A stretch of 6,978 bases of DNA from Nitrospinota bacterium (GTDB lineage Bacteria; Nitrospinota; Nitrospinia; JACRGO01), in NCBI GenBank assembly GCA_016212295.1, contig JACRGO010000007.1, forward strand, positions 1 through 6,978. The letters are read 5' to 3'. The notes below the pieces were generated by a model. The model ran no database searches and was not told the DNA's origin. It worked only from the letters and a program-made list of their open reading frames with translations. Each line of letters starts with the position of its first letter. Positions within the stretch are counted from its first letter, which is position 1. Positions 172 through 3,430 of this stretch are shown here, piece by piece. Both the position numbers and the translations under genes were made by a program.

Positions 172-204
172 TGGCTCCATAGCCCTGGCGGGACTATGGA
201 GCCA
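172..204. repeat. Strong inverted repeat (hairpin), possible weak terminator
   Basis: An 11-bp perfect inverted repeat: TGGCTCCATAG (172-182) pairs with CTATGGAGCCA (194-204) around an 11-nt loop. Inside the loop CCC (183-185) can also pair with GGG (190-192). A further partial copy of the left arm, GGGCTCCAT, lies at 162-170. On the minus strand, 61 nt after the stop of the small coiled-coil gene, no T tract follows, so it is not a classical intrinsic terminator for that gene. On the plus strand a T6 run (211-216) follows after a six-base gap, which is a poor fit. It may protect the 3' end of the leftward mRNA or be a dispersed repeat. Confidence 0.65.
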
Positions 205-217
205 GCAAGATTTTTTC

Positions 218-252
218 GTGTCCTGACTTCTGGCTCCTGGATTCTGACTCCT
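218..252 (-). repeat. Heptanucleotide tandem array, AGGAGTC-like
   Basis: Read on the minus strand this is five consecutive 7-nt units: AGGAGTC, AGAATCC, AGGAGCC, AGAAGTC, AGGACAC, with consensus AG(G/A)ANYC. The same phase and three of the same units recur at 791-811. The array sits just beyond the stop codon of the small coiled-coil gene. It overlaps the 36-bp direct repeat at 229-264. Degenerate heptamer arrays of this type are known as short tandemly repeated repetitive sequences in some bacteria, notably cyanobacteria. Confidence 0.75.
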
Positions 253-264
253 TTTCTAAGGAAC
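229..264. repeat. 36-bp perfect direct repeat, copy 1
   Basis: All 36 bases are identical to 788-823, and the flanking base differs on both sides. In minus-strand orientation the repeat opens with GTTCCTTAG, directly after the TAA stop (267-265) of the small gene and in the same frame, so it gives a second in-frame stop two codons later. It contains three units of the heptamer array. Together with copy 2 it brackets the small gene. Confidence 0.9.
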
Positions 265-786
265 TTATAATACCCCCTTGGGAGGCAAGAGCTTTTCTAT
301 CAGGTTTTTTAAAAATAAAAGCTCGTCTTTATGGGTTTCCAGGGTCGTCTCCATCCGGGTCTGTCTCCCATGCATTTGCCATTGCATGCGGAGCACAAAA
401 CCTAATATAACAAGGGCAATGGTGATAAAAAGTCCAAGCATCCAGCGGAGATCGTCAAAACGGCTATTCAGGTCATCAAACCTTCTGTCCATGGCATCAA
501 ATCTTTTATCAGTCGAATCCTTGAGATCGTTGATCTGTTTCTGAGTCGATTCCTTCAGGTCGTTGATCTGTTTCTGAGTCGATTCCTTGAGACCGTTAAT
601 CTGTTGCTGAGTCGATTCCTTGAGATCGTTGACCTGCTGCCGGAGGGCTTTTTGCCCTTCCTTCAATTCGGCAAGGCTTTCAATAATCTCCCTGTCGGAT
701 ATCCTTGGGGCCGTTTCCACCGCGAGCACGGGGGCATGGCTCAGAGAGATAAAGAAAAGGAATAAAAGAGGGAGAAATTTTTTCAT
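265..786 (-). CDS. Secreted or membrane-anchored coiled-coil protein with 11-residue repeats
   Basis: No known function is recognised. The 173-residue product starts at the ATG at 786-784, preceded by GGAG six bases upstream. The frame stays open upstream to 867, but that stretch translates the repeat and lacks a signal sequence, so I chose the inner start. Residues 1-22 form a signal peptide (MKK, then a Leu/Phe-rich core, likely cleavage after PVLA). Residues about 32-113 are a predicted coiled coil: four 11-residue units of QINDLKESTQK type (51-94), then RFD repeats. Residues about 115-134 form one membrane segment, followed by a charged amphipathic tail ending at 173. The architecture (hendecad coil, then RFDDLRW, then one membrane span) resembles Borrelia Bdr-like and other short bacterial repeat proteins. 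If the signal peptide is cleaved, the coil would be periplasmic and the tail cytoplasmic. It starts 28 nt after the cohesin gene and is probably cotranscribed. It is bracketed by 36-bp repeats. Confidence 0.8.
   Translation of the reverse strand: MKKFLPLLFLFFISLSHAPVLAVETAPRISDREIIESLAELKEGQKALRQQVNDLKESTQQQINGLKESTQKQINDLKESTQKQINDLKDSTDKRFDAMDRRFDDLNSRFDDLRWMLGLFITIALVILGFVLRMQWQMHGRQTRMETTLETHKDELLFLKNLIEKLLPPKGVL
505..636 (-). repeat. Four 33-bp tandem repeats within the coiled-coil gene
   Basis: Four adjacent 33-bp units (505-537, 538-570, 571-603, 604-636) differ at only a few positions and encode 11-residue units of the form Q(I/V)N(D/G)LK(E/D)ST(Q/D)(Q/K). The unit is a multiple of three, so gain or loss of copies would keep the frame. 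An 11-residue period fits a right-handed or straight coiled coil. The high DNA identity suggests recent expansion, and copy number is likely to vary between strains. Confidence 0.88.
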
Positions 787-811
787 GTCTGGCTCCTGGA
801 TTCTGACTCCT
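784..811 (-). repeat. Second AGGAGTC-like heptamer array, supplying the ribosome binding site
   Basis: On the minus strand three units AGGAGTC, AGAATCC, AGGAGCC (811-791) are followed by a fourth, diverged unit (790-784) that runs into the ATG start of the small gene. The last full unit contributes the GGAG that serves as Shine-Dalgarno sequence, six bases before the ATG. The units match those at 232-252 exactly. Confidence 0.75.
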
Positions 812-823
812 TTTCTAAGGAAC
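788..823. repeat. 36-bp perfect direct repeat, copy 2
   Basis: Identical to 229-264. In minus-strand orientation its first nine bases, GTTCCTTAG, encode the last two residues (Val-Pro) and the TAG stop of the cohesin protein gene. Its last bases carry the ribosome binding site of the next gene. It thus forms nearly the whole junction between the two leftward genes. The copies are 559 bp apart, and loss of one copy plus the DNA between them would delete the small gene and leave the larger one unchanged. Confidence 0.9.
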
Positions 824-3265: not shown

Positions 3266-3340
<75 letters not shown>

Positions 3341-3356
3341 TTATTTTTCTTTCAAA

Positions 3357-3430
3357 GGCGCCGTAGCCAAGTGGTAAGGCCGAGGTCTGCAAAACCTCTA
3401 CCCCCGGTTCGAATCCGGGCGGCGCCTCCA
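3357..3430 (+). tRNA. tRNA-Cys (anticodon GCA)
   Basis: A complete cloverleaf of 74 nt with encoded CCA. The acceptor GGCGCCG (3357-3363) pairs with CGGCGCC (3420-3426). The discriminator is T (3427), the cysteine identity base. The anticodon stem GAGGT/ACCTC closes CTGCAAA, with GCA at 3389-3391. The T arm CCGG-TTCGAAT-CCGG is canonical. It decodes UGC and UGU. No other tRNA follows before rpsL. Confidence 0.97.

Follow-up and report, generated by a model that had tools for sequence, protein, structure and literature searches.

The paired repeats that bracket a small coiled-coil gene in the Nitrospinota DNA analysed here (the window, a stretch of 6,978 nucleotides) are, in our judgement and by a modest balance of the evidence, the scar left by insertion of that gene into a dispersed heptad/hairpin element situated just downstream of a cohesin gene. 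The two 36-bp direct repeats, R1 and R2 (Table 1), are identical at 36 of 36 nt and have starts 559 bp apart, as an earlier, sequence-only reading of the locus had described; the longest exact repeat of the window is thus 36 nt, vs a maximum of 17 nt in 200 window shuffles. That reading had also held that the copy at the cohesin side provides the final two codons and the stop of the cohesin gene, together with the small gene's ribosome-binding site, while the other follows the small gene's stop in the same frame. Both descriptions stand: R1 contains GTT CCT TAG and then the Shine-Dalgarno sequence AGGAG (797-793), which lies 6 nt ahead of the small-gene ATG, and R2 starts immediately past the small-gene TAA (267-265), with the frame kept.

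Table 1. Coordinates of the features discussed, in window numbering
Feature	Position	Strand	Description
R1	788..823	-	Cohesin ORF end GTT CCT TAG, then a heptad array with the small gene's Shine-Dalgarno AGGAG (797-793)
R2	229..264	-	Abuts the small-gene TAA; left part of a dispersed element copy
Dispersed element copy	172..264	-	R2, one extra heptad, CACGAAAAAATCTTGC and the hairpin TGGCTCCATAGTCCCGCCAGGGCTATGGAGCCA (172-204)
Small gene, 173 aa	265..786	-	Signal-like N-terminus, long coiled-coil helix, TM segment, C-terminus LIEKLLPPKGVL
33-bp (11-aa) tandem repeats	511..636	-	Within the small gene's coiled-coil region
Inferred insert (the exact ORF and 1 extra nt)	265..787	-	Paralog DNA homology ends at both edges
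ATGAAAAAATT, candidate 5'-junction microhomology	776..786	-	Present both at the gene start and in the element consensus (AATATGAAAAAATTCC)
Upstream gene, 715 aa	815..2962	-	Surface protein with cohesin, dockerin-like and chitobiase C-terminal domains; its transcript would carry the small gene

About 22 bp of the 36-mer belong to a dispersed heptad-plus-hairpin element, of which the genome holds at least dozens of copies in searches with positions 150-270 and with a consensus, numbers that are lower bounds, as 40 of 170 candidates were scored. The element is laid out as heptads of the GGAGTCA, GAATCCA or GGAGCCA kind that lead to AATATGAAAAAATTC and then to the hairpin CTTGCTGGCTCCATAGTCCCGTCAGGGCTATGGAGCC; the centre differs in some copies, and in some, mirrored heptads follow on the far side. 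The hairpin of the local copy has a folding energy of about -28 kcal/mol (z -5.4), and in the congener G001 this hairpin occurs with different heptads. R2 runs on into the element hairpin (264-172), as happens in many other element copies, and R1 enters the small gene at the same element point, the ATGAAAAAATT stretch. The sequence-only reading, which took the 36 bp as the repeat, had overlooked this membership, as well as the small gene's loss of the promoter carried by its relatives (see below): the whole 36-mer is indeed unique to the locus, but it is not free-standing, its heptad part coming from the dispersed element. The idea that the element serves as a general start-codon module was rejected, since the ORFs that other copies open are all short (14-44 aa). 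Two Y1_Tnp genes are present in the genome, one located ~0.7 kb from an element half and the other with no significant match nearby; given the many element copies, the former is suggestive, and only suggestive, of a RAYT link. A further dispersed repeat, of 35 bp and beginning with GAACTTAACGCCCTTCGGGCGGAC, was observed at bases 106-141 of three contigs (C124, C182 and C194), and its equal distance from several contig ends suggests that the assembly is broken by a longer repeat.

The 36-mer opens with 14 nt (GTTCCTTAGAAAAG) that are absent from the common element and take in the end of the cohesin gene, which argues that R1 and R2 are a local duplication and not two independent element insertions. 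That the duplication is local also follows from the confinement of the whole 36-mer to these two window sites in the 3.74-Mb genome, with up to three mismatches allowed; the same search found it around no other gene. Each copy retains one native outer flank, cohesin coding sequence in the case of R1 and the element hairpin in that of R2. An insert that is bounded by identical direct repeats, with one native flank for each, would also fit transposition by a mobile element that generated a 36-bp target-site duplication, but this explanation is highly improbable: the insert contains neither a transposase nor terminal inverted repeats, its ends are a start and a stop codon, other family members show no such duplications, and 36 bp is very long for the target duplication of a transposon.

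The edges of the insert coincide with those of the reading frame. DNA homology to paralogs extends from 265 to 787-790, that is, from the stop codon on one side to a point 1-4 nt from the ATG on the other, and the nearest paralogs are 79-81% identical over the final 150 nt of the ORF vs about 20-30% in the next 30 nt. At the 5' junction, the window gene matches the element-consensus ATGAAAAAATT at 11 of 11 positions, while paralogs C57 and C9 have ATGAAGAAGTT; at the 3' junction (the stop codon), no clear microhomology was found.

These limits lend themselves to a mechanism in which the ancestral locus would have run from the cohesin TAG through the heptads to the hairpin, and a copy of the small gene, reaching from approximately its transcription start (which in the family would be the ATG) to its stop codon, would have been spliced in without a promoter. 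Replication or repair at the palindromic element would have switched template to a family gene at ATGAAAAAATT and copied the ORF, after which synthesis would have resumed 36 bp upstream of the departure point, re-copying the cohesin end and the heptads to yield the order R1-ORF-R2. Template switching at ATGAAAAAATT is probably responsible for the 36-bp re-copy, and complex templated rearrangements are known to arise through template switching driven by microhomology, for example in the MMBIR model (PMC2621351). A bolder proposal is that the whole family spreads through the genome by templated insertion into dispersed heptad/palindrome repeats. The window copy would then have entered as an mRNA-like unit (from ATG transcription start to stop), possibly by way of RNA or cDNA, and the host repeat would have become its ribosome-binding site; we consider this quite unlikely.

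The absence of differences between R1 and R2 over 36 bp places a 95% upper bound of about 8% on their divergence, vs a difference of ~20% from the nearest paralogs even where these match best, so that the insertion would be younger than the split from every sampled paralog, and the donor would consequently be lost, unassembled or foreign. No donor gene was found in the assembly (90.5% complete), where the nearest paralog is ~80% identical. The identity of the repeats could instead have been maintained by gene conversion, following an old tandem duplication of element and gene and the loss of the second gene copy; tandem family copies do occur in related genomes (for example, G015 C377 and G019 C54), but R2 passes directly into the hairpin that belongs to the element, and no remnant of a gene lies between, so that a history of this kind is decidedly improbable. 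A trivial origin has to be weighed as well, in which two contigs were chimerically joined at a shared 36-bp k-mer: the draft genome is fragmented into 237 contigs, the contig in question is short (6978 bp), and repeats of 36 bp could, in principle, cause a mis-join in a short-read MAG assembly. Such an artefact is very unlikely, however: a single contig holds both repeats, neither ORF is broken, the genes read in a coherent layout, and the 36-mer is found at no third site.

The promoter layout of the family also speaks for the insertion reading. Among 27 family members with a readable start, drawn from several genomes, 23 carry TTGACA (in one case TTGTAA), followed after 16-18 nt by TAnnnT that ends 6-9 nt before the ATG, and none of these 23 promoter-bearing members has a Shine-Dalgarno sequence. 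Since this spacing would put the transcription start at or near the ATG, the family looks leaderless, as far as promoter geometry can indicate. The window copy lacks both promoter boxes and is the sole member among the 27 with a Shine-Dalgarno sequence (AGGAG); relative to its family, it has lost the one and gained the other, and the gained sequence sits in R1. The small gene may thus be carried on the cohesin transcript and translated from the R1 Shine-Dalgarno sequence, and not as a leaderless mRNA.

The small protein is predicted to form a single long helix (residues 31-166) behind an N-terminal hydrophobic segment, with a mean pLDDT of 79, and would be a membrane-anchored coiled-coil protein of the envelope. 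No Pfam or NCBIfam family was matched above cut-off, and sub-threshold matches were dismissed as coiled-coil noise. The gene belongs to a set of ~20 paralogs in the genome, and its product displays the hallmarks of the family, an APRISDREI motif and a LIEKLLPPxGVL end. Relatives are present in 6 of 40 sampled related genomes, and further ones were identified in the Nitrospinota MAG UBA9963 and in two MAGs labelled Desulfobacteraceae and Deltaproteobacteria. A phage origin was rejected, viral contigs containing no relative, as was a plasmid origin, for which one plasmid gave only a weak, partial coiled-coil match. Dispersed repeats are more often neighbours of family genes than of other genes: upstream heptad periodicity has a median of 0.61 vs 0.43 for other genes (p=0.003), and a TTTGCAAT-type palindrome is found within 220 bp downstream of 6 of 15 family genes vs 2 of 209 others, figures which overstate the enrichment, as the TTTGCAAT motif was picked after viewing the same flanks and paralogs share ancestry. 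This setting is a lead towards repeat-assisted spread, and not a proof of it.

Joining the flanks in silico leaves the cohesin TAG, one repeat and the element; the earlier suggestion that recombination between the repeats would remove the small gene and preserve the cohesin end is therefore borne out as geometry, and clean deletion through R1 and R2 could come about merely because the scar exists. Bacteria are well known to delete DNA between short, closely spaced repeats independently of RecA, so that occasional loss of the small gene is plausible. The further suggestion that the gene is a gained cassette survives in part. Gain by insertion is likely, given that the insert is a discrete unit, that native outer flanks are kept, and that deletion would restore the cohesin gene and one element; a cassette system defined by the repeat finds no support, the 36-mer occurring nowhere else in the genome. 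A true excisable and integrable cassette, whose 559-bp unit (repeat plus gene) would circularise and reintegrate at the 36-mer by homologous or site-specific recombination, could draw on a geometry that allows scarless deletion, on the perfection of the repeats and on the above enrichment of dispersed repeats beside family genes. It is nonetheless unlikely, because the 36-mer is present at one locus only, the window encodes no recombinase, and the enrichment is inflated by non-independent paralogs. The search of the same genome for other genes flanked by the 36-bp repeat, a check proposed along with the cassette idea, returned none (up to three mismatches; ~30 family members checked), and a comparable close direct-repeat pair was seen in none of ~30 other family members checked. 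One member, C143, lies between two copies of an unrelated 32-bp palindromic repeat, the upstream one ~390 bp away; in this region (L050, around 1056-1506) the repeat reads TTCCGCTCGTTACAGATTTGCAATCTGTAACG, and similar palindromes were observed behind several other family members. No empty site was found in relatives, the sole congener having neither a cohesin ortholog nor the locus, and a different region upstream of rpsL. With no other family gene bearing the 36-bp repeat and the locus in no relative, a dedicated excisable cassette system is not supported.

Cohesin paralogs have different C-terminal ends, so that homology lends no support to a native origin of the GTTCCT codons. Within the cohesin gene, an in-frame array of AATTGTA/AATTGTC heptads (1640-1679) encodes NSQLTIYNLQL; at the same spot, cohesin paralogs either have no linker or have other ones, several of which seem to derive from heptads, and the linker looks hypervariable. 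Proteins with cohesin and chitobiase C-terminal repeats are expanded in the genome, and a Y1_Tnp gene lies between two of them (C211 11414-19402, L139). Between the cohesin gene and rpsL-rpsG-fusA-tuf are tRNA-Gly(gcc) and tRNA-Cys(gca) (3266-3430), beyond which nothing in the window reaches the Rfam gathering score; in the congener, ARAGORN detected no tRNA on the contig with rpsL-rpsG-fusA.

Small dispersed mobile repeats of cyanobacteria are reportedly associated with tandem heptamers, in work attributed to Elhai et al. in 2008, and the element described here resembles them in this trait, by description and not by sequence; we know of no case of gene capture by these repeats. In Beggiatoaceae, TAACTGA heptamers occur as direct repeats near start codons (PMC4679880), and the likeness lies in short heptads that are found genome-wide and in places fill the ribosome-binding region. 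The TAACTGA sequence is nevertheless different and has little Shine-Dalgarno character (PMC4679880), whereas the heptad here contains AGGAG; moreover, the heptads here make up the arms of a hairpin element and lie on both sides of a captured gene. REP sequences and REPINs are dispersed, mostly extragenic palindromes with a hairpin centre and many copies per genome, and REP sequences are known insertion targets (PMC3116915). The element shares with REPINs its dispersed palindromic hairpin and its many copies, but differs from them in its heptad arms and variable centres; a link to a RAYT transposase is suggestive only.

If the insertion reading is right, a dispersed repeat would have served both as a landing site and as a ready-made ribosome-binding site for a captured promoterless gene, and a gene from a leaderless family would have been turned into a Shine-Dalgarno-led one behind another gene. 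The small-protein family itself is lineage-expanded, with members that tend to sit among dispersed repeats, and its spread could be tested by the comparison of strains.
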